A stretch of DNA of 59,551 nucleotides, from the IMG/VR virus record IMGVR_UViG_3300002053_000002, positions 1-59,551 of that record; one strand, given 5' to 3'. Position 1 is the stretch's first letter; every line of letters begins with the position of its first letter. The translations under genes were made by a program, and so were the position numbers. The notes beneath the pieces were generated by a model. That model did not search any database. It worked only from the letters and a program-made list of their open reading frames with translations, and was not told the DNA's origin. This DNA is from a virus. Shown one piece after another: positions 6,815 to 39,317 of this stretch.

Positions 6815-7953
6815 TATGCAGCCTCCTGTAGAATTTCCTCATCTACTTCTGCAAGCATTCTATCAAAGAATGGTATTCCCTGACACCTACAATTTATTTC
6901 TTGTCCTGGTTCTGCTATTGCCATTGTAGGAGGTCTAAAGATAAAGGTTATTCCTCCATCTTCACTGTACACTTTTGGATCTCCCCATAAACAAATTTGT
7001 CCTTCAAGATTTATGTGGGTAGTTCTTACCCTTTCATCTTTTTCAGTGGACCAAATATACATGTTTGCTCCAATACCTTGTTGTCGCAATCTTGTTATTC
7101 TTCCATTGAGAGCTGCTATTTGATCTCTGGCTATTAGTCGAACTCTAGCATCCTCAATACTGAAATTTAATTGTCTTACATTATTTGTAATTTCAATCTG
7201 GGTTAATCCGTTTTGTACTCCATCGTTAATTATAAAAGTTACACGTCTAATATATTCAGCACTTAGTCCTCTTATTAAGTTCAGGTTTTCCTGTGTCCAT
7301 AAGCTAAGTACTTCTGACAACCAAGCTTCATTGGAGGTGAATTGTCTTCCAATTAACCTACTAAGTTGTTTTTGCCATTGCTGTTGATTAAACCCTGATA
7401 CATTTTCCCCAATAGCTGATAAGTCCGCTAAAACTTCATCAATTCCCCTATCGTATATGTTAGTAAGAATAGTATTAAGATTATTGGTAAAGTTTCTAAG
7501 TTCATCTGAGTAAATGTCATAACGAAATTCCTCTGAATAATCTTTCTTAAAATCTTCCCTTAAAACTTTTACCAAATATCTTCTTATTTCTTCATCATCT
7601 TCTGGATAAGAATCAGTACTTAATCTTTTTTCTATTTTTATTCTTTCGTTTTCTTCTTTTCGCAAGTTAGAAATTAAAGTACTGTCTGTTCTTGTTCCTT
7701 CTTTATATTGTGTTATCCAATCTGGAAGCTCTTCCTTTAATGTTTCTAACACAAAGTCTGTAAAGTTTTTCTGATAAGTTTTTATTAACTTACCATAAAC
7801 TCTTTCCCATTGTGAAGGAAATATCCATACAGGGTTATTAAAAGTCTTTGTTCTAGTTCTTGCAGAAGCTCCAATTGATTTACGATGCATCTTTAAAGTT
7901 TCGCGAAATAGTATTTCATAAAACCCTCTATCGTATCTTTGCGTTTTCTCCAC
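6814..7953 (-). CDS. Mu F-like minor head protein (SPP1 gp7 family)
   Basis: 379 aa. The C-terminal third has the phage Mu F / SPP1 gp7 signature: ARDQIAALNGRI, then a W-x-T-x-x-DERVR-x-x-H segment at about residues 293-304 and a closing PG-x-EINCRC motif near the end. These minor head proteins bind the portal and are carried in the procapsid. The N-terminal two thirds are helical and highly charged. The gene follows the portal and the 92-aa gene, as in many phages. No fused ADP-ribosyltransferase or toxin domain is visible. Confidence 0.9.
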   Translation of the reverse strand: MEKTQRYDRGFYEILFRETLKMHRKSIGASARTRTKTFNNPVWIFPSQWERVYGKLIKTYQKNFTDFVLETLKEELPDWITQYKEGTRTDSTLISNLRKEENERIKIEKRLSTDSYPEDDEEIRRYLVKVLREDFKKDYSEEFRYDIYSDELRNFTNNLNTILTNIYDRGIDEVLADLSAIGENVSGFNQQQWQKQLSRLIGRQFTSNEAWLSEVLSLWTQENLNLIRGLSAEYIRRVTFIINDGVQNGLTQIEITNNVRQLNFSIEDARVRLIARDQIAALNGRITRLRQQGIGANMYIWSTEKDERVRTTHINLEGQICLWGDPKVYSEDGGITFIFRPPTMAIAEPGQEINCRCQGIPFFDRMLAEVDEEILQEAA

Positions 7954-8206
7954 TTAAAGCCTCTATAGCAAATTGGTTTAATTCAATTTCTTCTTCTATT
8001 CCAATAGACTCAATATGTTTTGTGTTTTCTTGTTGTTCGATTAGAAATTTATAAAACTCATCTATTTCTTTTTTAGCTATTTGTTCAGCTACACTTTCAA
8101 ATTCTTTTTGTAAGAAATTTTCATAAAACTTTTTAATCTCAAAGTTCATTGCTTCTTGAACAAAAGGTTTTACAATAATATATAAAAGTTTTCTTAACAT
8201 TTTCAT
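7928..8206 (-). CDS. Hypothetical helical protein between portal and MuF genes
   Basis: 92 aa, starting MKMLRKLLYI; the ATG overlaps the portal stop by 4 bases and the 3' end overlaps the MuF start by 26 bases. It is amphipathic and helical, rich in Glu and Lys (KEFESVAEQIAKKEIDEF), with a short hydrophobic N-terminal stretch but no clear transmembrane helix. Family not recognised. The overlaps support expression as part of the head operon. Confidence 0.7.
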   Translation of the reverse strand: MKMLRKLLYIIVKPFVQEAMNFEIKKFYENFLQKEFESVAEQIAKKEIDEFYKFLIEQQENTKHIESIGIEEEIELNQFAIEALSGENAKIR

Positions 8207-9483
8207 ATTGGGTTTTCTGATTCTCTTCTTTCTAAGATTTCTTCAGGGGTGTGTATTCCCTGTTCAATGTCAATTTTGTCTGATTCAGAATTTAATTTTC
8301 TTATTTCAGCTTTTTCTTTTTCATCTGCTTCTCTTAAAGGATTAAATCTTACTTTAGGTTCTGAAACTTTCAAGTATCCTGCGACAATATTAACTAGTTT
8401 TCTTAATGGATATATTAACCAATTGGTTTGTTCAGATCTAACAGACTTATAATAATTTTCAAAGTCGGAATCCCCTGTGGCGTTTTGACCAGCAGGGGAC
8501 CGACCAAACAATAGAGTAACAGGTATACCACAAACTGAAGATAAGTTCATCATTCCTCTATCTATAATTCCTTCAATTCCTGAAAGATTTAAAGTGTCCC
8601 TTGAATAATCTTCACCTGAGTTCGCATCAAGCAAGACTGCATTAAGGACAGATTTACTTCTATCGATAATATCTATTCTTGTATATATTTTATTTATAGT
8701 TTCATTTGTGTTTTGTGCAAGGAAGTTTGCTAAGTTAGCTATTGAGTACTTTCCTACTGAAGCTTCTTGCATAAGAGTACTAACACCTTTTTCAATTATT
8801 CCATAGTTACTTAATCGTTCAAAGATTCTTACCATTACAGGTAAACCCCAATAACGATATTCAAAGTCAATGTTGATATCAAAGTCCGGGGATGGATCCC
8901 CTTTAAATACTAAGCACCTTGATTCATGTACGTTTAAGAGTTGTCCACCTCTTGTTCTTATAGGAAATATTTCCACTTCATCAAAGTAGTTACTATCTAC
9001 ATCTGATATAATGTTTGCTTGCGTTATTCTTACACGAGCTGCAGAATAAATTCTTAAGGCTTTTATTCCCTTAATTGTTTTTGGTGCAGGAGTAGAAAAG
9101 TCCGTTGTATCCCCTTCAAATACCATAAAGATTAATGCACCCCTGTACAGTCTCGTGAACTTGATTGCCATGTTTATTTTATTGTGTGCATCAATTCTTT
9201 TTAGTTCTTCTTGTATTTTTCCTTCATCATCATTTTCAATTGTTACCCAAGAACGAGTCATGTCATTGGCTGGTGTATCTATTATTTTAGTGGCCAATCC
9301 TTCATAGGTGTAAAGGTGTGTTAATAGTTCATCATCAAAATAAATATAAGGATAAGGAGTGTAGTAATTCGCGTCCGTCTTATCTCTACCTCTTTTTCCG
9401 ACACCTGAAAAAAGATTTTGCCACCCGTCTATTCTTGGTGATCCTTTTATTATATCATTTCCTTCTTTGTCAACTACTGCCAT
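8203..9483 (-). CDS. Phage portal protein (DUF1073-like)
   Basis: 426 aa. The N-terminal region has LLTHLYTYEGLATKIIDTPA followed by NDMTRSW, the hallmark of DUF1073-type portals, and the middle has GIPVTLLFGRSPAGQNATGD, another conserved portal stretch. Portals form the dodecameric ring at the capsid vertex through which DNA is packaged. It lies between TerL (12 bases upstream) and the MuF-like minor head protein, the classic order. The length is typical. The C-terminus ends in a helical, acidic region as in other portals. Confidence 0.93.
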   Translation of the reverse strand: MAVVDKEGNDIIKGSPRIDGWQNLFSGVGKRGRDKTDANYYTPYPYIYFDDELLTHLYTYEGLATKIIDTPANDMTRSWVTIENDDEGKIQEELKRIDAHNKINMAIKFTRLYRGALIFMVFEGDTTDFSTPAPKTIKGIKALRIYSAARVRITQANIISDVDSNYFDEVEIFPIRTRGGQLLNVHESRCLVFKGDPSPDFDINIDFEYRYWGLPVMVRIFERLSNYGIIEKGVSTLMQEASVGKYSIANLANFLAQNTNETINKIYTRIDIIDRSKSVLNAVLLDANSGEDYSRDTLNLSGIEGIIDRGMMNLSSVCGIPVTLLFGRSPAGQNATGDSDFENYYKSVRSEQTNWLIYPLRKLVNIVAGYLKVSEPKVRFNPLREADEKEKAEIRKLNSESDKIDIEQGIHTPEEILERRESENPI

Positions 9484-9495
9484 AGTTATTTCCTA

Positions 9496-10992
9496 TTACC
9501 AACTATTTAATGCATCATTAACTTCTGTTAATAATCCACTGTATTCTAAGACTCCTGTTAAAGCATCAGGTCCATCGTTATGTTTATTGGATTTAAAGTT
9601 TTTTCTAAATCGTAAAAGGTCCCTTGAAAATTCAGGCCACATTGTTGTCCAGTTTTCTGGAAACAATATATATCTCATACACGCTGGAGCGTTAGTTATA
9701 ATCCTACTTTCCTTATTCCCACTTTGATGGAACCATTCGATAATTATTTTTCTGTTTAATAATCTATCTACTGATCTAGCAAAACCTTTTCCTCCATTGT
9801 TACTTTCAAAATCTGCAAAGGTAACTTTATTCATTGACAATAATTCAGCTGTTAAAGGTTCCGTTTCTTCTTGTGGTGCTTGCGTGTACAGTACGTCAAG
9901 TATATAAATCTTATTGTCTGTTCCTACTCCATAACAAATAGAACATAAATAATCTGTCCCTTCATCTGCTGAGTCTGTATAGTTTTTAATTTCCCTAAAA
10001 TATGAAGGACGTATTTTATAAAGGTTAAATCCTTTTTGATAAAGCAATCCTCTTTTAGGTTTCGGGTCACCCTGTTCCAATGAATCAAACTTTTCTTCAT
10101 CCATTTCCCTTTCAGCTTCTTTGTCTTCTCGACTATGTCGGTTAGGCCAAATAGCTTCTCCAGGTTCCCTTGGATCAAGTTCAGTAGGTTCACCAATCTT
10201 TAGTGTAGGAAAATTAATCTTACACCAAACTTGTGGATTGTCTATAAAGTATTCTAAATCCTTCCAGCTTTCTAAGGTCTTAACTTTTGTTTTCTTTTCT
10301 AAATACCCTATAAGGTCTTCTTCATGCCATCTTGTGAAAACAATTAACTGCTGGCTTTTATTATGTAACCTTTTAAGAACAACAGACAAGTACCAATTGA
10401 TAACTGCTTCACGTACAATTGGACTGTTTCCTTCTGAATAATCTTTATAAAGGTCATCCAATATCATAAGGTCTATCTTTTCACCTGTTAAGGCTCCACC
10501 CCTACCAACTGATTTCATTGCCCCTTGATGATTAACAATTTCAAAAAGGCTTTGGGTCTTTTTGTATTCCTTTCCTCTTGTATCCGGTGAAAATTCTGTT
10601 GATTGTAAGGTAGTTTCTGGAAACAAATTGTAATAAGGATAATCGACAATTATCCTTTGTACATCCATTGAAAACTTCTGTGCGAAAGAAGAGTTGAAGC
10701 TTGCCAAGCCTATCTTTAAGTTTGGATTCTTTCCTAACATGTAGGCAGGTAGTCTTCTAGAACTACCTTCACTTTTTCCATTTTGTGGACCTATTGTAAC
10801 CATGAGTTTCTTTAACATACCTAAAGAAAAATAATTAAGTATCTTATAATAAGTCTCATGGAACCAAGTAGGTTCAAACTCATCCATTGTAAAATTTGCA
10901 AACTCTAAAAAATCTCTTCTAGCTAATTCTCTCCTTGCTAACTCAGAAACTATCCTTTCCTGAACAGAAAGGCTTTCCAAAGATCGGTTCAT
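9496..10992 (-). CDS. terL: Terminase large subunit
   Basis: 498 aa. An ATPase domain is followed by an RNase H-like nuclease domain. The Walker A-like segment near residue 70 reads TIGPQNGKS, a variant of the PPRHGKS seen in many terminases. Walker B is LMILDDLYKD, and the coupling motif is IVFTRWHEEDL. Nuclease acidic residues appear in YTDSADEGTD, FADFESNNGG and KHNDGPDAL near the C-terminus. The enzyme packages DNA through the portal and cuts concatemers. The gene starts 4 bases inside the preceding small ORF and is followed by the portal gene. Confidence 0.95.
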   Translation of the reverse strand: MNRSLESLSVQERIVSELARRELARRDFLEFANFTMDEFEPTWFHETYYKILNYFSLGMLKKLMVTIGPQNGKSEGSSRRLPAYMLGKNPNLKIGLASFNSSFAQKFSMDVQRIIVDYPYYNLFPETTLQSTEFSPDTRGKEYKKTQSLFEIVNHQGAMKSVGRGGALTGEKIDLMILDDLYKDYSEGNSPIVREAVINWYLSVVLKRLHNKSQQLIVFTRWHEEDLIGYLEKKTKVKTLESWKDLEYFIDNPQVWCKINFPTLKIGEPTELDPREPGEAIWPNRHSREDKEAEREMDEEKFDSLEQGDPKPKRGLLYQKGFNLYKIRPSYFREIKNYTDSADEGTDYLCSICYGVGTDNKIYILDVLYTQAPQEETEPLTAELLSMNKVTFADFESNNGGKGFARSVDRLLNRKIIIEWFHQSGNKESRIITNAPACMRYILFPENWTTMWPEFSRDLLRFRKNFKSNKHNDGPDALTGVLEYSGLLTEVNDALNSW

Positions 10993-13182: not shown

Positions 13183-13441
13183 CGGCTGTACTGTTTAGGC
13201 TTATTGTATTACAGTATATAAGGTAAAAACCCTGTATAACTGTACACATTGTACAACTATGTATATATAATAGGGGTATAGTCCATATAAACGCCCTGAC
13301 AAGGTTATAAAGCCCCACGTTAGTTTACATGTGGTACTAAAATAAACTGCCGTCTGGGACAGATGAGGCAACGCTATTAAAGTGTGCTACGAGAATTGTA
13401 GGGAATACAGGTAAACCGCTATAAATAGATCCAAAGTACCT
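13183..13441 (+). ncRNA. Intergenic region with candidate structured RNA
   Basis: This gap between the divergent early promoters has no credible gene. It contains TGTACA, 17 bases and TATATA near 13239-13268 as a possible plus-strand promoter, then a GC-richer stretch (about 13295-13380) that includes the 30-bp repeat at 13338-13367. That stretch can fold into TGCC/GGCA and GUCUG/CAGAU stems capped by GGA. A weak hairpin with a T-run (AAAGT/ACTTT then TTTTT, about 13434-13452) could end a transcript of about 170 nt. All of this is inference from sequence only. Confidence 0.35.
13338..13367 (+). repeat. 30-bp exact direct repeat, copy 1
   Basis: These 30 bases recur exactly at 39270-39299 in the same orientation. 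The core GCCGTCTGGGACAGAT folds into a 5-bp hairpin (GTCTG/CAGAT, one G-U pair) with loop GGA. Here the flanks TGCC and GGCA extend the stem. A 14-base segment just upstream (starting CCCCACG, 13306-13319) is the exact reverse complement of one just upstream of copy 2. Confidence 0.9.
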
Positions 13442-15971: not shown

Positions 15972-16409
15972 ATGCAAACATTTATCACTGATCACAATAT
16001 TTCCAATACTGCTGAATGTCTTGATTATAGGCGGTTAGGTAAGCAACGAGTTGAAGCTATACAGATTGCTCGTTGTTTATTACTTTCAGAGACTAAACTT
16101 ACAACTAACGGTTGGGCAAACCACTCGGCTGTTAAAATGTGGAAGGGTTATGAATCATACCTTATTAAAGTTTACTTATATGATATTATGTTAGAATGGG
16201 TTAAGCGAGGTTACAAAAATGAGAAATGTTATAAACATTACAAATATTTATTAACACTTGTTAACGATGATGAACCTGTTAAACCATATTGGATAGATGA
16301 TAACTTTATTGAAGCTCATCGTTCAAACTTAATAGCTAAGTATGAAGAATTTTATTTACCTTTGTGGCCTGATACTCAACGAAACTTACCTTACGTTTGG
16401 CCGGTATAA
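15972..16409 (+). CDS. Pyrimidine dimer DNA glycosylase-like protein (Pyr_excise / MSMEG_6728 family)
   Basis: 145 aa, starting MQTFITDHNI. The N-terminal LDYRRLGKQRVEA followed by W-x-NH-x-AVKMWKGYE is the signature of the MSMEG_6728/Pyr_excise family, related to phage T4 DenV. T4 DenV uses its N-terminal Thr as nucleophile, whereas here residue 2 is Gln and Thr is residue 3, so activity is uncertain. The family is common in phages. A strong AAGGAGG site precedes it. A role in repairing UV damage or acting on unusual bases in phage or host DNA is inferred. Confidence 0.8.
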   Translation: MQTFITDHNISNTAECLDYRRLGKQRVEAIQIARCLLLSETKLTTNGWANHSAVKMWKGYESYLIKVYLYDIMLEWVKRGYKNEKCYKHYKYLLTLVNDDEPVKPYWIDDNFIEAHRSNLIAKYEEFYLPLWPDTQRNLPYVWPV

Positions 16410-17590: not shown

Positions 17591-17769
17591 AACACTTTCT
17601 AAAAAGTAAGATTGTGTTTTGGAATTTGTATACGGATGATGAGCTGTGCAAAGAAGTATTCATTGTTCCAACAATTTCAATTGCAAAACACATCGGAGTA
17701 GAAGATTCTAAGTATGTTTATTTTAGATGGATCGTTTTTGGAATTGGAATTCGTGTTTGGAGAAAATAA
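17587..17769 (+). CDS. Small hypothetical protein
   Basis: 60 aa, starting MKHFLKSKIV, overlapping the previous stop by 4 bases and preceded by AGGAGGGG. Beta-rich and aromatic, ending in IVFGIGIRVWRK. No domain recognised. Co-translated with its neighbours. Confidence 0.6.
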   Translation: MKHFLKSKIVFWNLYTDDELCKEVFIVPTISIAKHIGVEDSKYVYFRWIVFGIGIRVWRK

Positions 17770-17786
17770 CAAATTGGGGGGTTCCA

Positions 17787-19340
17787 ATGGTTACATTACG
17801 ATTTATTTTGTTGTCTTTAGTTATGGCAACATTAACTCAACTTATTTATACGAAACGTGCAATGGCAAATATTGATTATTTGCCCAACCAGTCTGCTAAC
17901 TACTTAATGAATCCTATAAGGATAGGTTCTACAGAAGGGGCGGACATAGCAAATTTTAATCCAGCAGGCACAGCATTTATGAAAGATGGAATTCACTTTG
18001 ATGTAAGTGTACAAAGTATCACAGTATCTTACAGTGGAATGGAATACAAGGGTAAGACTTACGGTTCTAATGAACCTGTTCCAGCAATACCAAATGCCTA
18101 CTTTGTTTTTAAGAAAGGGCGTTGGTCATTGTTTGCATCGTTCACAATTCCTGCTGGTGGTGGTACAAGACATTACAAAGATGGTATTCCTATGTTGGAT
18201 GAAAATTGTCCAAAGGTCTCAGATCAAGCACAGGATATTATTTTTGAACAGGCACACAAAGGGTTAGCTGAAAAAGCACACATGTCTGTTACTGAATATT
18301 GGCTTGCGCCTACAATAAGATCAATTATTGGATCTGACTTTTTTAATCCGAATGATCCATCCATTGACTTTAATTCAATGAAGTATGTTGAGCAGCATTT
18401 AGATTTTTCAAACACTAAAGTTGATTGGTTAGGTGGTGAAGTTAAAGGTAGCAGTATGTATTTAGCTGGGACAATAGGTACAGCTTATCAAATTATTGAA
18501 AAAGTTTTCGCTACTTCTTTCAGTATAAGATACATATACGCTAAGAACGAGTATTCAGGGTGGACAAAGTATCGAATAACTCCAGTTGCTGTTAGTGATG
18601 GATGTATGGTTGCTGATCAAATTGCAGATGAAGTAAATAACCCTGCAAATATTACTACTGAGTTAGTGGAATTAGACGCAAGTAAAGAAGCCCATGGAAT
18701 AGGGGCAATTATAGGTTTACACTGGAGGCCAGTAGAAAGTTTAAATATTGGTTTGCGTTACGAATCTCAAACAGTTCTGTCTTGGAAAGAAAGTGTTAAG
18801 GATGGAAAAAGTTTTGCAGGTATGTTTGTGGATGGAAGACGTAGAAGTTACAATTTACCTTCTCTGGTTGGGCTTGGAATTGAATGGAGTCCAACTGGTT
18901 GGCTTGCAGTAGGTATACAAGGTCATTATTATTTTGTTAAGCTCGCTGATTCTTATTCTGATGAAGGTGGTGAGATACTGGGATATAATGACAATTATAG
19001 TGATGCCTGGGACGGACAATTTGGTTTAAAGTTAAAACCTTTTGACTGGCTAGAGTTTGGAGCTGGTACAGCTTATTATTATGGAGGTGCAAATAAAAAG
19101 ACTTATAGTGATTTAGATGCACAGATTCCATGCGTTTCAATTTCAGGTGGAATTAAGATAACACCTTTTAAATGTTTATCATTAACAGGTTCAGGTGGTT
19201 ACTTACATTATTTTCCTAAGCGAAACGCTGCTGGTAACAAAAGGTACATACAAAAGAATATTGCCTTTGCTGTTGGTGTTGAATACAGATATTTATTTGA
19301 CACATCAGACTCAAGGAATGAAGTAAATTTACCTAAATAG
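17787..19340 (+). CDS. OmpP1/FadL-type outer membrane beta-barrel protein
   Basis: 517 aa from ATG 17787 (GGGGGG upstream); an earlier in-frame ATG at 17727 lies inside the previous gene and would hide the signal peptide. Residues 1-27 form a Sec signal peptide ending in AMA. The mature N-terminus has EGADIANFNPAGTAF, the NPA hatch motif of the FadL family (N at about residue 58). The rest alternates in barrel-strand fashion with FadL-like stretches such as GLRYESQTVLSW, LPSLVGLGIEW and FGAGTAYYYGG. FadL proteins let hydrophobic compounds cross the outer membrane, and E. coli FadL is a receptor for phage T2. The last residue is Lys after LP, not the usual Phe, but VGVEYRYLF lies just upstream. 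A host-derived gene is likely. Confidence 0.88.
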   Translation: MVTLRFILLSLVMATLTQLIYTKRAMANIDYLPNQSANYLMNPIRIGSTEGADIANFNPAGTAFMKDGIHFDVSVQSITVSYSGMEYKGKTYGSNEPVPAIPNAYFVFKKGRWSLFASFTIPAGGGTRHYKDGIPMLDENCPKVSDQAQDIIFEQAHKGLAEKAHMSVTEYWLAPTIRSIIGSDFFNPNDPSIDFNSMKYVEQHLDFSNTKVDWLGGEVKGSSMYLAGTIGTAYQIIEKVFATSFSIRYIYAKNEYSGWTKYRITPVAVSDGCMVADQIADEVNNPANITTELVELDASKEAHGIGAIIGLHWRPVESLNIGLRYESQTVLSWKESVKDGKSFAGMFVDGRRRSYNLPSLVGLGIEWSPTGWLAVGIQGHYYFVKLADSYSDEGGEILGYNDNYSDAWDGQFGLKLKPFDWLEFGAGTAYYYGGANKKTYSDLDAQIPCVSISGGIKITPFKCLSLTGSGGYLHYFPKRNAAGNKRYIQKNIAFAVGVEYRYLFDTSDSRNEVNLPK

Positions 19341-24552: not shown

Positions 24553-25011
24553 ATGAAGAAAATAATATTTTTTACAATTATAACTATAGTTCTTTTGTTT
24601 ACTGTATCTATTAAAGGTGAAGTTTTTATCCCTTCATTTGATGAACTTTCAGAACGTGTAGGACAAATGTTTAAGTACGATACTTGTGAACAGTTTGAAT
24701 ATAATCCAAGCGGAGTTAAGTATCTTGGAAATAGTTATGAGTATCTAACATACCAATATTTGTTTTTAGATTATCATAAGAAAGGTTTTCACAAAAAGAA
24801 TAGACCTAGAAAATTTAATTCTTATAGTGTGAGATATCCAATAAGACTTTATGGAATTAAGTTTAGCAAAGATAAATCTTTAGTGACTTACCTTTTAATA
24901 GATAGAAGAGGTAAAACTTTTTATTATAATAGTACAAATGATTTTATATCCCCTTTAAAGTGTGGAGTTATGTTAAGGGATCCTCTACCTTTGTTTGGAC
25001 TGGACAGGTAA
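24553..25011 (+). CDS. Exported protein of unknown function
   Basis: 152 aa, starting MKKIIFFTII behind AAGGAGAAAAT. A classical Sec signal peptide (residues 1-22, cleavage near KGE) leads to a mature protein of about 130 residues that is rich in Tyr, with two Cys residues (CEQF and LKCGV). No domain recognised. A periplasmic or envelope role is likely. It sits between the primase and helicase genes, which is an odd place for an exported protein. Confidence 0.7.
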   Translation: MKKIIFFTIITIVLLFTVSIKGEVFIPSFDELSERVGQMFKYDTCEQFEYNPSGVKYLGNSYEYLTYQYLFLDYHKKGFHKKNRPRKFNSYSVRYPIRLYGIKFSKDKSLVTYLLIDRRGKTFYYNSTNDFISPLKCGVMLRDPLPLFGLDR

Positions 25012-25012
25012 T

Positions 25013-26434
25013 ATGCAAGAAACAACAATGATCTTTGGAGCTCCAGGGTGTGGAAAGACAACGTACTTATTGAACTTACTTTCTGACATTTTGGATGATT
25101 ATGATTCAGATAAAATTGCCTTTGTTTCTTTTACAAAGAAAGGAAGTTATGAAGGAAGAGATAGAGCTACTGAAAAGTTTGGTTATAAAGATTCTGACTT
25201 ACCTTATTTTAGAACTATTCATTCATTAGCTTTTAGAGACCTTGGAATGTCAAGGTATGAAATGATTTCCAAGAAAAATTATAAAGAGTTTTCAAGGGCA
25301 ATGGGTATGAACTTTGTAGGTTACTACACAGAGGACTTTATCAATAACGATGATAAATATTTGTTTTATGTTTCTCTAAAGAAAAATAATCCAAGGACCG
25401 CTGAAATATTGTTGGAGGATTTAGATGTAAAGAAAGTAAATTTTGTTTCCAATAACTATGAAAGATTTAAAACTGAAATGGGAGTAAAGGATTTTGATGA
25501 TTTAATTGTAGAGTTTATTAAAAAAGATAAACCGTTACCTGTTCAAGTAGCTATAATTGATGAAGCACAAGACCTTACATCCTTGCAATGGAAATTTTGT
25601 GAAGTAGCTTTTAGAAATTGTAACAAAGTTTATATAGCAGGGGATGATGACCAAGCAATATATGAATGGTCAGGCTCTGATATAAAACATTTTTTAAATC
25701 TTTCAAAACATAGTGAAAACATTGTGTTGGACAAATCGTACAGACTTAGACAAAAGATACTAAATTTTTCTAAACTATTTTCAAAACAAATATCTAATCG
25801 TGTAGATAAAATCTTTGACCCTGTACAAGAAGGTGGTGAAATTTATTTTTATAATAAAGTAGATGAGATACCTATAAACAATGAGGAATCTTACTACTTT
25901 CTAGCCAGAAATAATTATCACTTATCTATATATGGAAAAAGGTTACGGGAGTTAGGAATGACTTTTCAATATAAGCACAGGTATAGTGTTGATATGAAAA
26001 AGTATAACGCTGTAAGGATTTATGAAAAACATAGGAAGTATGATCCTGAACAAATTTATACTGACCTATCACTTAAACCTTATTTAAGAGACATTATAAA
26101 CATTAAAGATCCGTGGTTTTATTCTCTGAACTTTGATATAAACGAGAAAACTTATTTTAAAGACTTGTTTAAAAACAAAGTTGATGTTACTAAAACAAAT
26201 TGTGAAGTGAATACAATACATGGAGTAAAGGGTGGTGAAGCTGACAATGTTGTTTTGTTGTTAGATGTAACTAAAACTATTGACAATAACCTTGAACGAA
26301 ATGTAGAAGCCTTGGATTCTGAATTAAGATGTTTATATGTAGCTTTAACAAGAGCAAAAAAGAATTTACATATTGTACATTCTAATTCACAATTCGGTTA
26401 CGAAAGTATTTTTAGGAGGTCTATGAATGAGTGA
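25013..26434 (+). CDS. SF1 UvrD/Rep-like DNA helicase
   Basis: 473 aa from ATG 25013 (an earlier TTG start at 24995 overlaps the previous gene). Motifs: Walker A FGAPGCGKTTYL (K at residue 15), motif II AIIDEAQDLT (about residue 180), motif III AGDDDQAIYEWSGSD, motif V TIHGVKGGEADNV and motif VI YVALTRAKKNLHIV. This is the UvrD/Rep type of superfamily 1. It unwinds DNA during replication or repair. It lacks the large 1B/2B insertions and is shorter than UvrD (about 720 aa), as in many phage versions. Confidence 0.93.
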   Translation: MQETTMIFGAPGCGKTTYLLNLLSDILDDYDSDKIAFVSFTKKGSYEGRDRATEKFGYKDSDLPYFRTIHSLAFRDLGMSRYEMISKKNYKEFSRAMGMNFVGYYTEDFINNDDKYLFYVSLKKNNPRTAEILLEDLDVKKVNFVSNNYERFKTEMGVKDFDDLIVEFIKKDKPLPVQVAIIDEAQDLTSLQWKFCEVAFRNCNKVYIAGDDDQAIYEWSGSDIKHFLNLSKHSENIVLDKSYRLRQKILNFSKLFSKQISNRVDKIFDPVQEGGEIYFYNKVDEIPINNEESYYFLARNNYHLSIYGKRLRELGMTFQYKHRYSVDMKKYNAVRIYEKHRKYDPEQIYTDLSLKPYLRDIINIKDPWFYSLNFDINEKTYFKDLFKNKVDVTKTNCEVNTIHGVKGGEADNVVLLLDVTKTIDNNLERNVEALDSELRCLYVALTRAKKNLHIVHSNSQFGYESIFRRSMNE

Positions 26435-27344
26435 AATTTATAATAAGTTAACAAACTTAAATTATTCTATAAGTATTCCATCTAGAAATAGGATACATCT
26501 TATAGAAAAAAGAATAGGTATATGGAAACATATAGACCCTTTTAGCTTTAATTATCTATACGAAATTATAGTTCGAGAAAGTGAAGCAAGTGACTATAGA
26601 AAAGCTGTAGATAATTATGCACCTGTCTTTGTTGTACCTGATGATTCTACAATCGCAGATAAAAGACAAAAGTGTTTTGATATAGCAAAGGAAAATTTTA
26701 CTGAATACCTATTTATAATTGACGATGATATAAACTTGTATTTCAGAGATGAAAATCTATCTTCAAAATATACTTCAAGGCATGAAGACTTTATTGCAAA
26801 CGATTGCTTTAATAAAATACTTTATGAAAGTATACAACTTTGTAATGAGGAGTACCCAATAGTTGGACTGCCATTGAAGCTTGGAAGCCAAGGAATTAAA
26901 TACATGTTTCCTAAGAATATTCCAATTATAAGATTCGTTTGTTACCATGTTCCAACTTTAATAAAGGAAGGTATAAAGATTAATGAAATGCCTGTTCCTT
27001 TTATGAGTGATCGTTATGTACAATTAAAATTATTGTCAAAAGGTTACAAGTCTTTAAGCAATGCTCGTTGGTGCTGTGGTGACCCTGGAACAGGATACAA
27101 AGGTGGATGTTCAGAAACAAGAACAGTAGAAGCACAATCTGAATCCGCTAAACAATTATGTAAAGAATTTCCTGGGTATGTTGATCTTAAAATAAAGAAC
27201 AACGGACTATGGGATGAGGAAAGATTAGATTGTACAATAGACTGGAAAAGATTTTTACCTGAAGGCGAGGAACCTTATATACCAGCTGAAGAAGGTATGA
27301 AAATTATACTTGGAACTAATACATTTTTAAAAGGATATGAATAA
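26427..27344 (+). CDS. TAGT-like glycosyltransferase, candidate DNA-base glycosyltransferase
   Basis: 305 aa behind AGGAGGT. A GT-A fold is indicated by SISIPSRNR at the N-terminus, a VPDDSTIADKRQKCFDIA middle and FIIDDDINLYF at residues 96-106, with a D-x-D-type metal site at D99-D101. The pattern resembles the TET/JBP-associated glycosyltransferases (TAGT) described in phages with modified DNA. The C-terminal part has CCGDPGTGYKGGCSETRT, which may shape the acceptor site. It heads the modification cluster, directly before an aGPT-PPlase-type gene. Family assignment by pattern; DNA as the substrate is inferred from context. Confidence 0.72.
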   Translation: MSEIYNKLTNLNYSISIPSRNRIHLIEKRIGIWKHIDPFSFNYLYEIIVRESEASDYRKAVDNYAPVFVVPDDSTIADKRQKCFDIAKENFTEYLFIIDDDINLYFRDENLSSKYTSRHEDFIANDCFNKILYESIQLCNEEYPIVGLPLKLGSQGIKYMFPKNIPIIRFVCYHVPTLIKEGIKINEMPVPFMSDRYVQLKLLSKGYKSLSNARWCCGDPGTGYKGGCSETRTVEAQSESAKQLCKEFPGYVDLKIKNNGLWDEERLDCTIDWKRFLPEGEEPYIPAEEGMKIILGTNTFLKGYE

Positions 27345-27361
27345 GATGATAGGAGAAATAT

Positions 27362-28219
27362 ATGAATAACCATTTTAATTCTGAACACTTTAATCACTTC
27401 TTAGATACGGCTATTGAACGACATAAGATTTACAAATTAAAGGAAGAAGGAATGCCAGCTCCTTGGACTGAGGATGAGATATTCCAAAATTTCTTTTTCT
27501 GTAATGTGTTTCGTCAATACGATAAGTGTACAAAGTGGTTAATAGAAAACATACTTCCCTTTGAAAGATGGGATTTAATAATTTTATACAGGTTTATTTC
27601 TACATATTCTACATTCTGTAGAATAAAAGAAAACTGTAAACTGGACAATTTATCTGAAGTAAAAGATTTTCTTAGTAGTAGAAAAGAAGAAGGGGAAAAA
27701 TTATTTTCTTCATGCTTTATAAGAAATCCAAGAGTACCTGGTGGTTGGTTAGAAACGTATGAAGCTCCATTCTTTTTAATTGAAAGTTTAAAAGCTAACG
27801 ATTATATAAAAGAAGTTATTAAAGAAAACTCTATGGAAAGGCTTGTAGATTTTCTAAAACAATTTCCTGGTGTTGGTGGTTTTATGGCATACGAATATGC
27901 TTGTGATTTTGAATACACAGACTACTTTAATCCAACCGATAAAAATACCTATGCAAACATGGGTCCTGGGGCAAGACAAGGAATGAGCCTTATAAGGTTT
28001 GGTTATCCTACTGTAAGAATAAAACAAAGAGATTGGTTGCCTGATGCAGTAGTTGTAAGGGAAGTAATGGAAGAAGAATTTAGAATATACTTTCCAGAAG
28101 AAAAAATAACCTTAAGGGAAGTTGAACATTGGTTGTGTGAATATCAAAAGTATGTTAAGTATCTTAATGCTTACACTGGAAATCAAAAAGTAAAGTTTAG
28201 AAAATATAACGGAAGGTAA
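27362..28219 (+). CDS. aGPT-PPlase-type protein (DNA glycosylase fold), thymine/cytosine hypermodification family
   Basis: 285 aa. FFFCNVFRQYDKCTKWL near residues 43-59 and LKQFPGVGGFMAYEYACD near residue 170, with a helix-hairpin-helix look, then NMGPGARQGM, are the conserved blocks of the alpha-glutamyl/putrescinyl-thymine pyrophosphorylase family. Members of this family replace an activated hydroxymethyl group of a base on DNA with an amine or amino acid. It normally needs a P-loop kinase that pyrophosphorylates the hydroxymethyl group, and I see none in this genome. It is followed by a radical SAM gene, as in known hypermodification clusters. Confidence 0.75.
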   Translation: MNNHFNSEHFNHFLDTAIERHKIYKLKEEGMPAPWTEDEIFQNFFFCNVFRQYDKCTKWLIENILPFERWDLIILYRFISTYSTFCRIKENCKLDNLSEVKDFLSSRKEEGEKLFSSCFIRNPRVPGGWLETYEAPFFLIESLKANDYIKEVIKENSMERLVDFLKQFPGVGGFMAYEYACDFEYTDYFNPTDKNTYANMGPGARQGMSLIRFGYPTVRIKQRDWLPDAVVVREVMEEEFRIYFPEEKITLREVEHWLCEYQKYVKYLNAYTGNQKVKFRKYNGR

Positions 28220-28221
28220 CT

Positions 28222-29289
28222 ATGGAAATGTATGATAAGGAGCATGTCGCAGAATTAAGGAAACATAATCTACTTGTTTTTACAGAACCAAATCAGGTTC
28301 GTATAGAATTTGTAAGAGGATGTAACCTTAATTGTTCTTTCTGTGGAAGGTCACAAGCTTCTACTGGTAGAATAACAAAAGAAACTTTGTTGAATATTGT
28401 AGATAACCTGACAGAAAAAACAAAACGTATATCAATCTCTTTACAAGGTGAACCAACTCTACATAAGAATGTAGGAGAGTACATAGGTATTATAAGAGAA
28501 AAAATGCCAAAGGCACAGATACTTATAATAACAAATACTGAAGTCTATAAAAGTAAAAACATATTTGAATTTATAGACTTGTTTGACAAGGGTCTTAATT
28601 ATGCTCAAACAGATTTTTATAGTAAGGCACAAAGGGATTTCTTTATAGGTGAACTAGAAAGAAACAAAAGAATTTTAGAAATAAAAGGAATACAAGTTTA
28701 TGACTATTATAAAGACAACGTTAATGCTTTTTCTTATAAAGGTTATAAACATAAAACAATTATCTTAACAGACGAAAGTGACATATTTAATTGTGATGGT
28801 AACGTTACAAGACGTATGCACAATTGGGGAGGCAACCTAAAACTTTCCCAATGGGAAAAATATACAGGTTCAAAATTACAGGACTTTCCATTAAGAAAAG
28901 TATGTAAAGAACCCTACAAATATATGACAATAGGTTATGATGGAATCGTAGATATTTGTTGTAGTAATGGTGCTAAGTGTATAGACTTAGGTAACGTTAA
29001 CGAAGAACATGTACTTGATATTTGGCAAGGTGAAAAGTTTCAAAAGGTTAGAGCACTACTTGCGGAAGGATATAGAGAAGATCTTATTTCATGTGTTCTA
29101 TGTAGTCAAAGAAGTTTTCGTGTAGGTTTATATCCTTACTGGGGTAAGGAATATTTTTATGGCGACTGTATACATACAGTTGAAAAAATACAGAAGTTAC
29201 ATCCTAAAGAACCTTTGTACAATAATTTAATTGAGTTTTCCAAAATAGGTAAACTAAAACCACATATATCAAAACTAATAAAGGAGTAA
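28222..29289 (+). CDS. Radical SAM enzyme with SPASM-like C-terminal domain
   Basis: 355 aa. The CxxxCxxC cluster site is FVRGCNLNCSFCGRSQ (C34, C38, C41). The C-terminal part has seven or more Cys (VCKEPYKYMTIGYDG, DICCSNGAKC, CVLCSQRS), the layout of a SPASM/twitch domain with extra Fe-S clusters. It uses S-adenosylmethionine to make a radical; the substrate is unknown. Radical SAM enzymes act on thymine hypermodifications in other phages, so a base-modifying step is likely. It starts two bases after the aGPT-PPlase stop. Confidence 0.85.
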   Translation: MEMYDKEHVAELRKHNLLVFTEPNQVRIEFVRGCNLNCSFCGRSQASTGRITKETLLNIVDNLTEKTKRISISLQGEPTLHKNVGEYIGIIREKMPKAQILIITNTEVYKSKNIFEFIDLFDKGLNYAQTDFYSKAQRDFFIGELERNKRILEIKGIQVYDYYKDNVNAFSYKGYKHKTIILTDESDIFNCDGNVTRRMHNWGGNLKLSQWEKYTGSKLQDFPLRKVCKEPYKYMTIGYDGIVDICCSNGAKCIDLGNVNEEHVLDIWQGEKFQKVRALLAEGYREDLISCVLCSQRSFRVGLYPYWGKEYFYGDCIHTVEKIQKLHPKEPLYNNLIEFSKIGKLKPHISKLIKE

Positions 29290-29291
29290 AT

Positions 29292-29909
29292 ATGAATATC
29301 GAAAATTATTTAGACAAAAGAAAAACAATGATTTCAATCAAAAGATTTGAAATGGAATTTGTTTTAAGACCACAAAATCTATGCGAACATGGACACGGAA
29401 CTGCCACGTTGTTCTATTTGTTTTGTAAAGAGTTTGGAGTAGAAATAAATGAGGACATTTTATTTATACTTATGAATCATGATTTTGCAGAGACCTTTAC
29501 AGGCGATATGAATAGGCTGATACGAAACAAAAATGAAAAGACAAAAGAAGCTTGGAGTGTACTTGAAGAGGAAACACTTCCTGAAGAACTTAAACCTTGG
29601 TCAGACAAAGGTATAGAAAATATCTTAACGGAAGATCAATTACTTCTTTTTAAATTGTCTGATGAAATGGAAGCATACTTATATTGTTTTGAAGAACATA
29701 CTTTAGGAAATAGATATATCTATGGACCAATAGAAAGATACGCTCAAATTTTAAGCAGTAGAATTATAGAGTGTGAGAAAAAATTTAATAAGGGCAGAGA
29801 ATTTTGGGAAGGTCGTCTTGGAATCCATGGACTGTATCCTACAGAGAAGCCTAAATATGAAGGAAAACCAGTCACCCCAGACATAAGGGAGGAAAAAAGT
29901 AATGAATGA
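29292..29909 (+). CDS. HD-domain 5'-deoxynucleotidase (YfbR-like)
   Basis: 205 aa. RPQNLCEHGHGTATL (H33), LMNHDFAETFTGDM (H63, D64) and FKLSDEMEAYL (D124) match the metal-binding residues of YfbR-type nucleotidases, which hydrolyse deoxynucleoside 5'-monophosphates. EEHTLGNR is also typical. The same fold gives DatZ, a dATPase that removes dATP in phages with 2-aminoadenine DNA. Here, with no PurZ, it more likely clears a canonical nucleotide such as dCMP or dTMP from the pool. Substrate is not readable from sequence. Confidence 0.82.
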   Translation: MNIENYLDKRKTMISIKRFEMEFVLRPQNLCEHGHGTATLFYLFCKEFGVEINEDILFILMNHDFAETFTGDMNRLIRNKNEKTKEAWSVLEEETLPEELKPWSDKGIENILTEDQLLLFKLSDEMEAYLYCFEEHTLGNRYIYGPIERYAQILSSRIIECEKKFNKGREFWEGRLGIHGLYPTEKPKYEGKPVTPDIREEKSNE

Positions 29910-29979
29910 TAATTTCGACTTTAATCAAGTCTATTATAAACTTATGTATAATGTTTATTACAACAGGAGGGGAAGTTGA
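29902..29979 (+). CDS. Possible 25-residue coupled ORF
   Basis: ATG 29902 follows GGGAGGAAAAAAGTA and overlaps the previous stop; the TGA ends at 29979, overlapping the next ATG. The peptide is MNDNFDFNQVYYKLMYNVYY followed by NRRGS. It may simply couple translation of the thymidylate-synthase-like gene, whose ribosome site AGGAGGGG lies inside it. Weak evidence. Confidence 0.3.
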   Translation: MNDNFDFNQVYYKLMYNVYYNRRGS

Positions 29980-30803
29980 TGAAGATAGTTCAGAATGATT
30001 TTAATAAAATTTATTGTTGCTTAATGGATAAAGTGTACAATGATTTTGACTATAGTATATTAAACAGAAAAGGAGAAAAGGTTTTTGAACTGTTAGACTA
30101 TAGTTTCACTTTGACAAAGCCTAAAAAATGTTTCGCAACTTGTAGGGATATGTCTATAGATTATTTAAAAGGGGAATTAGAATTCTATACTTCAGGAAGC
30201 CCTTTTCTAAAAGAAATTTCTAAGCATTCAAAATTCTGGAACAAGGTTTCAGATGATGGAAGAACAATCTTTAGTAACTATGGAAAACTATTGTTACACG
30301 ATAGAAACCATCACAACTACACTCAGTTTGAATATGCAAGGGAAATGTTGTTACAAAATAAGGACAGCAAGAAAGCTGTTATGACAATATATAACAGAGA
30401 AAATGCTCATCCTAGTAATGACAATCCGTGTACAATGTTTTTACAATTTTTTATAAGAGGAGGGAAACTACATTTATTTGTTAAGATGAGGTCTTCAGAT
30501 ATTTGGTATGGTTTACCTTATGATGTTCCTTTCTTTTGTTTAATACAATTAAAGATGCTTAAGGAGTTACGTTCAAACTATGACATAAAACTAGGAAACT
30601 ATAATCATCAGACTGGTAGTCTTCACATGTACGAAAGAAATTTACTTCTTATAAAAGAAAAGTTATCTAAAGTTTATAATTTAATAGGTATCTCTGAATT
30701 TAAACGTTCTGAATTTGAAAAGGGGTGTGATGACTATTTATTAGAATTATATAGTCAAACTTTATTTAAACACATAGGATACATAGGAGGGGAATATGAA
30801 TAA
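29979..30803 (+). CDS. Thymidylate-synthase-fold dCMP hydroxymethylase (or methylase)
   Basis: 274 aa from ATG 29979 (AGGAGG 8 bases upstream; an in-frame TTG lies 3 bases earlier). The catalytic Cys is C151 in NPCTMFLQFF. RSSDIWYGLPYDV follows, with D182 exactly 31 residues after the Cys. In E. coli ThyA the pair is C146 and N177 (Asn selects dUMP); in T4 dCMP hydroxymethylase it is C148 and D179 (Asp selects dCMP). SLHMY (H216, Y218) matches the H-x-Y of thymidylate synthases. The enzyme should therefore make 5-hydroxymethyl-dCMP, or 5-methyl-dCMP, from dCMP and a folate. The His after the Cys is replaced by Thr. Confidence 0.85.
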   Translation: MKIVQNDFNKIYCCLMDKVYNDFDYSILNRKGEKVFELLDYSFTLTKPKKCFATCRDMSIDYLKGELEFYTSGSPFLKEISKHSKFWNKVSDDGRTIFSNYGKLLLHDRNHHNYTQFEYAREMLLQNKDSKKAVMTIYNRENAHPSNDNPCTMFLQFFIRGGKLHLFVKMRSSDIWYGLPYDVPFFCLIQLKMLKELRSNYDIKLGNYNHQTGSLHMYERNLLLIKEKLSKVYNLIGISEFKRSEFEKGCDDYLLELYSQTLFKHIGYIGGEYE

Positions 30804-31257
30804 GGAAAAGTTTTTAGACGCTGTAGAGCTTGCAAAGGTTATGGCAGAAACATCCCAATGTCTTAAGAAAAAAGTAGGTGCAGTCTTAATGTATAAAAAT
30901 ACAGGTGAGATTGTTGGAGTAGGTCATGGAGGGGCTGAAGTTCCATGTGAAAAATGTGTACGAAAAGAGTATGAATGGCAACAAGATGGATGTTGGGCTA
31001 TTCATGCTGAACCAAGAGCGATATTCGATTGCTTTAAAAATCTTGGATACAATACTGATCTAAGTGACTTTATTATGTTAGTTACTCATGGTCCTTGTGA
31101 TCAATGTTTAAAGTATATGCATCTATTTAAAATTCCTGTAGTGATCTACGATATAGAGTATCACAATGACTATACAAAATGGGAAGGAAAAATAGGTGTT
31201 GATACTGTAAAAAACCTTTTAGAAATATTTGATATAAAGGAGGAATTTCTAAGATGA
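30796..31257 (+). CDS. dCMP deaminase-like zinc enzyme
   Basis: 153 aa. The AIHAEPRAI motif (H-A-E) and GPCDQCLKYM (PCxxC) are the zinc and catalytic residues of the deoxycytidylate/cytidine deaminase family. A CEKC pair may bind a second zinc. A dCMP deaminase gives dUMP; with the neighbouring dCMP hydroxymethylase-like gene it would compete for dCMP, as in phage T4, where both enzymes are made. Overlaps its neighbour by 8 bases. Confidence 0.85.
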   Translation: MNKEKFLDAVELAKVMAETSQCLKKKVGAVLMYKNTGEIVGVGHGGAEVPCEKCVRKEYEWQQDGCWAIHAEPRAIFDCFKNLGYNTDLSDFIMLVTHGPCDQCLKYMHLFKIPVVIYDIEYHNDYTKWEGKIGVDTVKNLLEIFDIKEEFLR

Positions 31258-33110
31258 AGTTAAGCTATTATCAATATAAAGGTGATAAAGAAATAGCAGT
31301 TGATATAGAATCAAAGGACCCTTTACTAAAAGAAAAGGGTCCAGGTGTCTATCGTAAAGATGGATACGTTACTGGAGTTTCCTTTTCTAATGGAGAACTT
31401 TCAGAATATTATCCAATAAATCATTTTGATGTGACTCCTGAAAAAGCTAATTTAAATCGTAAATATATTATTGATCAGTTAAGTTCTAACAATCATAAAA
31501 TATTTGCCAATGGATTATACGACTTAGATTGGTTAATAAATTATGAAGGAATACCTGTTAATGGTGTATATAATGATGTCCAAATAGCTGAACCACTTAT
31601 TGATGAATATAAATTAACTTACAGTTTAGATTCCTTGGGTGAAGAATATTTAGGTATTGGAAAAAACTATAGGGATATTAAGGAGTATATGATTCATAAC
31701 GGTATAGAGTTTCCTAAAGGTAGGGTTGACAATAAAATATTGTATACTTTGCCAGCATTAGTTGTTGCACCTTATGGTGCACAAGATGCTTTACTTACTT
31801 ACAAAGTTTTTCAAAAACAAAAAAGATTATTGGAAGATCAAAACTTAATGAATGTATACGACATAGAGATGAGATTGTTTCCATTGCTTTTACAAATGAG
31901 AAGAACAGGTGTAAGGGTTGATAAAGAAAAGCTGTACAAAACAGGAATGCAACTTGATGATTTAAGGTACGATCTACAAGATGAATTAAATCAAATAGCT
32001 GGCAGAGAACTTAATGCGAACAGTGGAAAACAGTTAGAAAAATTGTTTTTGTCTATGGGACATCCTGTAGAATACAATGAACCTACTGAGTTAATGATAA
32101 TGAAAGGACAACTTAAAGGAAATCCAAAGTTTGATAAGGAAACATTAAGTAAAATGGATCATGATCTAGCTAAAAAAATATTAGAAATTAGACATATTTC
32201 CACTTTATTAAATATGTTTATACATCCTTATCCAGAATTAATGGTAGGTGATAGACTACATTGTAGCTTTAATCAATTAAGAAGTGATGATTATGGAACA
32301 GTAAGTGGAAGGTTCTCTTCATCAAATCCAAATTTACAGCAAGTTTCTGGAAAAAATGAAAACGAATATATACAACATGATAGTGAAGTATTGTCCGGTC
32401 AAGTTGTAAGAAAACTATTTGTTCCAGAGGAAGGTTGTGATTGGTTAAAGATGGACTGGTCACAAATTGAATATCGACTTATAGCACATTACGCTTCTGG
32501 AGAAGGTTCAGAGGTTATACGACAAAGATATATTAACGATCCAAACGTAGACTACCATGCTGAACTTATGGAAATGACAGGTATTGATGACCGTAAGGTT
32601 ATTAAGACACTAAACTTTGGAGCTGCTTATGGGATGGGAATTACATCTATGTCTAGAAAATATAATTGGGAACTTGAAGGTGCTAAGGCTGTTTATGAAA
32701 TGTATCATTCAAAAGTTCCATTCGTTAAAGAGACAGGAAGGAGAGTTGCATCAAAGGCAAAACGGTTTGGATACATAAGAACAATATTAAATCGTCGTGC
32801 TCGTATGCCACAGTCTGGAAAAGAATATATAATGTTTAATAGACTTATACAAGGTTCTGCAGCAGACATTATGAAAAAGTCTATGGTTGATGCTTATGAA
32901 GCTGGAGTATTCGACGTTCTAATTCCACACTTAACAGTCCATGATGAAATGGACTGTAGTATGCCAAGAACTGAAATAGGTAGGGATGCAGGCGAAGAAT
33001 TGAAACACATAATGGAAACAAGTATACGTCTAAGGGTTCCTGTAATAGTCGATGCAGAAATTGGTGAAAACTGGGGGGATCTAAAGGAATGGAAAATAGA
33101 GTATGTTTAA
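31254..33110 (+). CDS. Family A DNA polymerase with 3'-5' exonuclease
   Basis: 618 aa. The exonuclease domain has VDIESKD (D17, E19), IFANGLYDLDW and YGAQDALLTYK, so proofreading residues are present. The polymerase domain has motif A WLKMDWSQIEYRLIAHY (near residue 400), motif B DRKVIKTLNFGAAYG (near residue 450) and motif C LTVHDEMDC (near residue 562). No N-terminal 5' nuclease domain is present. Motif B has Phe at the position that controls dideoxynucleotide sensitivity, as in E. coli Pol I. It probably copies the phage genome with modified dCTP. Confidence 0.95.
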   Translation: MKLSYYQYKGDKEIAVDIESKDPLLKEKGPGVYRKDGYVTGVSFSNGELSEYYPINHFDVTPEKANLNRKYIIDQLSSNNHKIFANGLYDLDWLINYEGIPVNGVYNDVQIAEPLIDEYKLTYSLDSLGEEYLGIGKNYRDIKEYMIHNGIEFPKGRVDNKILYTLPALVVAPYGAQDALLTYKVFQKQKRLLEDQNLMNVYDIEMRLFPLLLQMRRTGVRVDKEKLYKTGMQLDDLRYDLQDELNQIAGRELNANSGKQLEKLFLSMGHPVEYNEPTELMIMKGQLKGNPKFDKETLSKMDHDLAKKILEIRHISTLLNMFIHPYPELMVGDRLHCSFNQLRSDDYGTVSGRFSSSNPNLQQVSGKNENEYIQHDSEVLSGQVVRKLFVPEEGCDWLKMDWSQIEYRLIAHYASGEGSEVIRQRYINDPNVDYHAELMEMTGIDDRKVIKTLNFGAAYGMGITSMSRKYNWELEGAKAVYEMYHSKVPFVKETGRRVASKAKRFGYIRTILNRRARMPQSGKEYIMFNRLIQGSAADIMKKSMVDAYEAGVFDVLIPHLTVHDEMDCSMPRTEIGRDAGEELKHIMETSIRLRVPVIVDAEIGENWGDLKEWKIEYV

Positions 33111-39202: not shown

Positions 39203-39269
39203 TAATTTTGTTAGTAATAGTATAACACTATAAAAGTATAAAATCCCGACATACAAACTAACGTGGGGT
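39203..39269 (+). promoter_or_regulatory. Intergenic region with possible promoter upstream of repeat copy 2
   Basis: Very AT-rich. TTGTTA (39208-39213) and TATAAA lie 15 bases apart, so this is a weak promoter candidate. AACACTATAAAAGTATAA (39224-39241) is an exact 18-bp repeat of 14546-14563. AAACTAACGTGGGG (39256-39269) is the exact reverse complement of a segment upstream of repeat copy 1. Confidence 0.35.
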
Positions 39270-39299
39270 TAAAATAAACTGCCGTCTGGGACAGATGAG
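39270..39299 (+). repeat. 30-bp exact direct repeat, copy 2
   Basis: Identical to 13338-13367. The GTCTG/CAGAT hairpin is inside the repeat; here ACTG before and CAGT after (39303) could extend the stem through an internal loop. It precedes a terminator-like hairpin, so it may be part of a short RNA. The two copies flank the whole early/replication region. Confidence 0.9.
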
Positions 39300-39317
39300 C
39301 CAGTACAATTTTACAAA

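Follow-up and report, generated by a model that had tools for sequence, protein, structure and literature searches.

The viral record IMGVR_UViG_3300002053_000002 of IMG/VR (59,551 bases; "the window" below means this whole stretch of DNA) carries, between a helicase gene and the gene of a PolA-type DNA polymerase, a cassette of six genes that probably builds sugar-decorated 5-hydroxymethylcytosine (hmC) in phage DNA. Its new feature is the presence, in one cassette, of a thymidylate synthase (TS) homologue of the deoxycytidine monophosphate (dCMP) type and of a radical S-adenosylmethionine enzyme (rSAM) of the BtrN type, each family itself being already known; no description of this combination was found in the literature and sequence collections searched, and no isolated phage was found with it. 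The six plus-strand open reading frames (ORFs) occupy positions 26427-31257, separated by overlaps or gaps of 2-69 nt, in the order TAGT-HEL-rSAM-HD-TS-deaminase and then PolA, where HEL stands for the HMUDK_hel protein. An earlier reading of the letters without database searches (the sequence-only reading) had described six packed genes next to PolA in this interval; all of these ORFs are indeed there, with families matched in Pfam or PHROG, and the proteins it had labelled a GT-A glycosyltransferase and aGPT-PPlase-like fall in PF20691 and PF18723. The cassette and its flanks are as follows.

24995..26434, + strand: UvrD-like helicase, upstream flank, with an 8-nt overlap with the TAGT start
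26427..27344, + strand: TAGT family GT-A glycosyltransferase (Pfam PF20691, E=1.4e-7; PHROG 842, E=2e-25)
27362..28219, + strand: HEL, HMUDK_hel protein, former aGPT-PPlase clade 1 (Pfam PF18723, E=1.9e-45)
28222..29289, + strand: BtrN-type Twitch radical SAM enzyme (Pfam Radical_SAM, 1.6e-10; SPASM, 1.8e-11)
29292..29909, + strand: YfbR-like HD phosphohydrolase (Pfam PF12917, E=3.6e-17)
29979..30803, + strand: TS homologue, dCMP hydroxymethylase-like (Pfam Thymidylat_synt, E=2.4e-21)
30796..31257, + strand: Zn-deaminase of the dCMP deaminase type (Pfam dCMP_cyt_deam_1, E=1.9e-13)
31254..33110, + strand: PolA with a 3'-5' exonuclease domain, downstream flank (Pfam DNA_pol_A, E=6e-61)

The TS homologue indicates which base is modified. 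Its closest solved structure is the dCMP hydroxymethylase of T4 (E=4e-20), whose Asp179 aligns with an Asp of the window protein. In E. coli ThyA numbering the protein has W80, V83, T147 and D177 (W80, W83, H147 and N177 in ThyA), all four matching T4, and the catalytic Cys146 is kept, with Thr replacing His147. The alignment of E. coli ThyA, T4 gp42, SPO1 gp29, M6 gp58 and about 60 other viral proteins contains two types. T4, the window and their relatives have T147/D177, W (rarely F or Y) at position 80 and a residue other than W at 83; SPO1, M6 and the phages with a kinase have N147/N177 (one S147), mostly M, A or I at 80, and F or Y at 83. Within the latter, the enzymes of SPO1, M6 and Acinetobacter phage 15599, which are of the deoxyuridine monophosphate (dUMP) type, show M or A at 80, F or Y at 83, N147 and N177. 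Positions 177 and 147 are also those that best separated cytosine-modified from unmodified phage contigs in MetaGPA (PMC8670742). Because of the T4-like residues and of these marker positions, the TS homologue is predicted to act on dCMP. That cytosine and not thymine would be the modified base, as the sequence-only reading had proposed with a TS-like enzyme acting at the mononucleotide level, appears well supported, and so does the production of 5-hydroxymethyl-dCMP from dCMP; the active-site match to T4 suggests a hydroxymethyl rather than a methyl product, and virion DNA would then be expected to contain the modified cytosine. Regarding the start of this gene, the ORF list gives TTG 29976, and ATG 29979, preceded by AGGAGG, is the better start. 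Between HD and TS, a 25-codon ORF at 29902-29981 (MNDNFDFNQVYYKLMYNVYYNRRGS) looks by eye like residues 1-30 of the TS homologue and is perhaps the remnant of a duplicated TS start.

The TAGT protein scores 32.1 bits against PF20691, above the gathering cut-off of 27.5, and its PHROG match, 842, is a beta-glucosyl-HMC-alpha-glucosyltransferase. The acidic GT-A motif DDD (D99-D101) is invariant in three aligned proteins, and the enzyme would glycosylate a hydroxymethyl pyrimidine in DNA. HEL matches PF18723 with 155.8 bits over profile positions 2-274 of 281; it is all-helical, lacks a Walker A motif, as do the 78 HEL matches scanned, and contains a hairpin-like segment, FPGVGGFMAYE. The family is now called HMUDK_hel, and we take it to be the aGPT-PPlase clade 1 of older papers, in such a way that the earlier label named the right family, but nothing indicates a pyrophosphorylase chemistry. 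The Pfam name is explained by a fusion, the 636-aa ORF of Bacillus phage SBSphiC, in which the P-loop 5-hydroxymethyldeoxyuridine (5-hmdU) DNA kinase is joined to HEL. Among 64 distinct HEL loci, which are not independent and are given as counts with no probability attached, the kinase lies within 4.5 kb in 15 and TAGT is present in 13; no locus combines the two, and the remainder shows neither. A dUMP-type TS accompanies most HEL and HEL-TAGT relatives, and the HELs of four cassettes form a single clade with full support (100/100) on a long branch. Having in mind the mutually exclusive kinase and TAGT neighbours and the kinase-HEL fusion, we read HEL as a likely shared partner of different enzymes acting on hydroxymethyl pyrimidines in DNA, here TAGT, through base flipping, DNA binding or a first transfer.

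Other roles for HEL were considered. That it could be the missing kinase was rejected, as neither HEL nor its scanned homologues have a P-loop and the SBSphiC kinase is a separate fused domain. That it could be an amino acid:DNA transferase (ADDT, aGPT-PPlase clade 2) is not supported: HEL matches PF18723 and not PF18724, its comparison with the ADDT profile gave no significant similarity (probability about 1%, E=0.056), and the ADDT profile has no match in the window. The 5-hmdU DNA kinase profile (PF18748) has no match in the window either, the sole plausible ORF with a Walker A of the kinase/helicase type being the UvrD-like helicase. The absence of a hydroxymethyl-base kinase, which the sequence-only reading had noted, is confirmed by this result, and the known 5-hmdU kinase, which does not phosphorylate hmC (PMC6457204), is not one that an hmC cassette would be expected to rely on. 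The earlier reading also found no TET enzyme, and no TET/JBP dioxygenase appears among the Pfam matches of the 20 window proteins scanned; for a phage with a dCMP hydroxymethylase, such as T4, doing without TET is nothing unusual.

Several loci show HEL or its associated families in other settings. In L104 (3207-8391) and L140 (10023-13014), HEL adjoins a methyltransferase-like gene (Pfam-confirmed in L104), a dUTPase-like gene and a dCMP-type TS, and L104 additionally carries a gene like S-adenosylmethionine synthetase. In L184 (IMGVR_UViG_3300038312_000091), an ADDT (PF18724), a protein of the 5-hmdU kinase family (PF18748) and a thymidylate-kinase-like protein lie at 6887-9603, directly before a dCMP-type TS (Asp177, Thr147); this is possibly the M6 pathway in a cytosine form, for which a kinase able to act on hmC would be required. 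At 15972-16409 the window encodes a protein of the MSMEG_6728 family, and small proteins that look similar by eye are encoded directly upstream of HEL in L093, L095 and L110.

The rSAM has the cysteines C34-C38-C41 (CxxxCxxC) and the auxiliary C228, C246, C291 and C294, which are invariant across 37 aligned proteins (the window enzyme and 36 viral relatives). The profile of these proteins aligns with the whole of BtrN (E=6e-49), and the nearest folds in PDB to the model of the enzyme are BtrN, followed by SuiB, anSME, DesII and SpeY. The radical SAM/SPASM label of the sequence-only reading agrees with the SPASM match in Pfam, but the four auxiliary cysteines follow the BtrN (Twitch) pattern and not the full SPASM set. 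No phage protein matched the rSAM or TAGT of the window directly at 1e-5, and bacterial genomes scanned with the cassette rSAM yielded distant matches only (22-23% identity). The known relatives of this BtrN-type Twitch enzyme oxidise cyclitols or sugars. The pair TAGT-rSAM recurs in locus L014, with no HEL or TS match in that locus. In L106, which has a cluster of the dUMP type, a cupin-like protein (by eye) and an FkbM methyltransferase are encoded at 9782-10766 between HEL and TAGT, and are possible further sugar-tailoring enzymes; in L174, a B12-binding radical SAM protein (6324-7607), encoded between TAGT and HEL, takes the place of the Twitch enzyme. Taken together, the L014 pair, the L106 FkbM protein and the L174 enzyme point to a tailoring of the attached sugar, which we regard as tentative and as the least certain step of the pathway.

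The HD protein conserves the residues of the metal site (H33, H63-D64, E67 and D124), and we propose that it acts as a hydrolase of the dCTP/dCDP/dCMP pool that would clear dCTP or a related nucleotide, as the dCTPase does in T4; genes that by eye look like dUTPases in the hmU-type (5-hydroxymethyluracil) relatives are a possible parallel. The deaminase has an intact zinc site (HAE and PCxxC, here PCDQC), with HAExR instead of HAExN, and would either feed dUMP for dTMP synthesis or act on 5-hydroxymethyl-dCMP (hm-dCMP), the latter making hmU the final base. Both are most likely nucleotide-pool enzymes and not DNA-acting ones, in such a way that the earlier idea that all the enzymes accompanying the TS homologue elaborate the base on DNA is retained for TAGT, HEL and rSAM, for which we propose it, and not for these two.

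IMG/VR was searched with the cassette proteins, and the full order TAGT-HEL-rSAM-HD-TS-deaminase-PolA, for which the sequence-only reading had suggested a search, was found in three other contigs with 34-60% protein identity: L002 (3300027896_001999), with two TAGT, two radical SAM and an HNH-like gene; L012 (3300027852_000082), with two TAGT; and L091 (3300032401_000021). Since the order is the same in three divergent contigs, the cassette is not due to chance. L174 and L176 retain TAGT, HEL, HD, a dCMP-type TS with Asp177, the deaminase and PolA, with no radical SAM profile match in the L176 locus. Four further phages (L003/L177, at 3034-4272 in L003; L178; L179; L180) have TS-deaminase fusions of 401-412 aa between helicase and PolA, with no match to HEL, TAGT or radical SAM nearby. 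Thus, the deaminase adjoins the Asp177 TS in six cassettes and is fused to it in four phages, that is, in all ten related genomes, and the HxExR motif is found in all ten deaminases. From this locus comparison, the core is formed by TS and deaminase, a second layer by HD, HEL and TAGT, and a variable layer by radical SAM.

The pathway that we propose would begin with the HD hydrolase degrading dCTP or a related nucleotide, which would keep plain cytosine from the DNA and free dCMP. The TS homologue would convert dCMP to hm-dCMP before replication, in the manner of T4 gp42, with the deaminase adjusting the same pool, and host kinases would raise hm-dCMP to the triphosphate for incorporation by PolA. 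On the DNA, TAGT would glycosylate the hydroxymethyl group, or a first substituent already attached to it, with HEL as its partner for DNA or base recognition or for the first transfer, a position held by the P-loop kinase in thymine-hypermodifying phages. That T6-like phages extend glucosyl-hmC by a further sugar with a TAGT (PMC13390438) also speaks for this pathway. The Twitch enzyme might then oxidise or epimerise the sugar at a carbon that bears a hydroxyl, and the modified DNA would block restriction enzymes. A bolder version, which we consider conceivable but somewhat doubtful, is that the DNA contains an undescribed hypermodified cytosine, a glycosyl-hmC on which the Twitch enzyme remodels, within the DNA, the sugar (or the hydroxymethyl carbon), and that HMUDK_hel is a general base-presenting or transfer partner for glycosyltransferases and kinases.

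Several observations weigh against the synthesis of sugar-decorated hmC as proposed here. Arg152, an active-site residue of BtrN, is retained in most of the viral rSAM relatives, but its position is occupied by Trp or Phe in all five cassette enzymes (Trp202 in the window). Because of this change we do not assign the BtrN reaction to them, and it may not be transferable. The AlphaFold2 model of HEL (pLDDT 89.9) has no confident fold match in PDB (best E 1.8), and that to hOGG1 (TM 0.27) is too low for us to claim a DNA-glycosylase fold. No deoxynucleotide kinase was found in the window, whereas T4 brings its own, and none of the cassette genes was recognised as one for making sugar nucleotides. 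In addition, a deaminase adjoining the hydroxymethylase leaves open the conversion of hm-dCMP to 5-hydroxymethyl-dUMP.

This last point leads to the main rival, in which a thymine-type modification is reached through dCMP: the TS homologue makes hm-dCMP, the HAExR deaminase turns it into 5-hydroxymethyl-dUMP, and HEL and TAGT decorate hmU, as they probably do in relatives. The proximity of both genes, even fused in phages without HEL or TAGT nearby, the HxExR motif, suggesting an altered substrate, and the dUMP-type TS of most HEL and HEL-TAGT relatives speak for this route. However, T4 has both enzymes and keeps hmC, the locus of Microbacterium phage Clock has HEL, TAGT and an Asp177 TS with no deaminase profile match in the 9.3-kb stretch searched, and deaminases accompanied Asp177 TS in contigs that MetaGPA had selected for modified cytosine (PMC8670742), so that we judge it unlikely. 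Only rather unlikely, in our opinion, is that hmC is made and glycosylated but that rSAM and HEL act before TAGT on the hydroxymethyl group or the base, for instance by oxidation to formyl or by a non-sugar attachment. For this reading speak the position of the rSAM gene between HEL and the nucleotide enzymes, the chemistry of BtrN, which removes two electrons from an alcohol of an aminocyclitol (PMC9012708), the hydroxymethyl group being also an alcohol, and the TAGT of T6-like phages, which adds its sugar to an already substituted base, glucosyl-hmC (PMC13390438). Against it, the BtrN, SpeY and DesII relatives act on sugar- or cyclitol-type rings, and the L014 pair occurs with no HEL or TS match in its locus. 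Finally, we find it very improbable that the TS homologue is a dCMP methylase producing 5-methylcytosine, as in Xp12, with the other enzymes serving a different pathway. N177D alone converts TS to a dCMP methylase (cited in PMC8670742), and the residues of the window enzyme do not strictly separate methylation from hydroxymethylation, but its best match and all its diagnostic residues are those of the T4 hydroxymethylase rather than of TS, and without an oxidase 5-methylcytosine would offer no acceptor to a TAGT that works on hydroxymethyl pyrimidines, no TET having been found among the 20 proteins scanned.

Regarding the genome, an exact 104-nt terminal repeat shows the assembly to be complete and circular, with a length of about 59.4 kb, and minus-strand genes for tail sheath, portal, terminase and protease mark a myophage; the host of this uncultured virus is a bacterium. 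The cassette belongs to a plus-strand replication block at 15-40 kb (31-33% GC), for which profile searches gave an AEP primase, the UvrD-like helicase, PolA, a SNF2-type helicase, Pam3-like proteins and an ATP-dependent ligase. No tRNA genes were detected in the window, no similar phage DNA was found at the megablast level, and a promoter scan gave as many matches as shuffled sequence. A 40-nt direct repeat, 90% identical, at 13331-13370 and 39263-39302 flanks the plus-strand early block and may be a regulatory site. The 537-aa protein encoded at 17727-19340 looks by eye like an outer-membrane beta-barrel of the FadL/OmpP1 type and has no Pfam or PHROG match.

Compared with known systems, the cassette joins elaboration of hydroxymethylcytosine as in T4 with that of hydroxymethyluracil as in M6. 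With the T-even phages (T4, T6) it shares a dCMP-type TS with the T4 residues, a glycosyltransferase (TAGT in T6-like phages) and a deaminase of the pool pathway; it differs in having HD in place of the T4 dCTPase, HEL, the Twitch enzyme, no deoxynucleoside monophosphate kinase found and a PolA-type replication module. The 5-hmdU clusters of Pseudomonas M6, ViI-type phages and Stenotrophomonas Sonora also have HEL, a TS homologue and a deaminase near PolA, plus an HD hydrolase in M6, but the M6-type clusters have the P-loop kinase, an ADDT and a dUMP-type TS where the window has TAGT, radical SAM and a dCMP-type TS. HMUDK_hel, although it owes its name to the 5-hmdU DNA kinase, occurs in many phages without that kinase nearby, also with dCMP-type hydroxymethylases.

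Pelagiphages have clusters of aG/PT-PPlase1, TS, 5'-nucleotidase and beta-glucosyl-HMC-alpha-glucosyltransferase near PolA, that is, the same HEL, glycosyltransferase and nucleotidase families, with no radical SAM enzyme reported in the cluster in the sections of that work available to us (PMC9599517). Therefore, the enzyme set, described as unusual in the sequence-only reading, is so for its dCMP-type TS and BtrN-type rSAM, but not for HEL, TAGT and TS near PolA. BtrN itself, the 2-deoxy-scyllo-inosamine dehydrogenase of butirosin synthesis, is homologous to the window rSAM over its full length, with the radical SAM and all four auxiliary-cluster cysteines; the window enzyme differs in the Arg152 position, in an extra C-terminal region with a GLxPYWG motif and in its phage context. 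If it is true that it acts on a DNA-bound sugar, this would be a new DNA-base chemistry and a new counter-restriction device. The HEL-TAGT loci retrieved without rSAM and with a TS match have a dUMP-type TS (Asn177), except L176 and Clock (PQ559672). Clock encodes HEL (gp51), an Asp177 TS (gp48), TAGT (gp45) and a MazG-like pyrophosphohydrolase (gp42), which perhaps fills the dCTP-clearing role, and like the window it gave no kinase-profile match in the stretch searched; it differs in its gene order and in showing no radical SAM, HD or deaminase profile match there. Unlike the virus of the window, Clock is cultured, with M. foliorum as its laboratory host, in such a way that the HEL-TAGT-hmC half of the proposed pathway is testable now in this partial relative.

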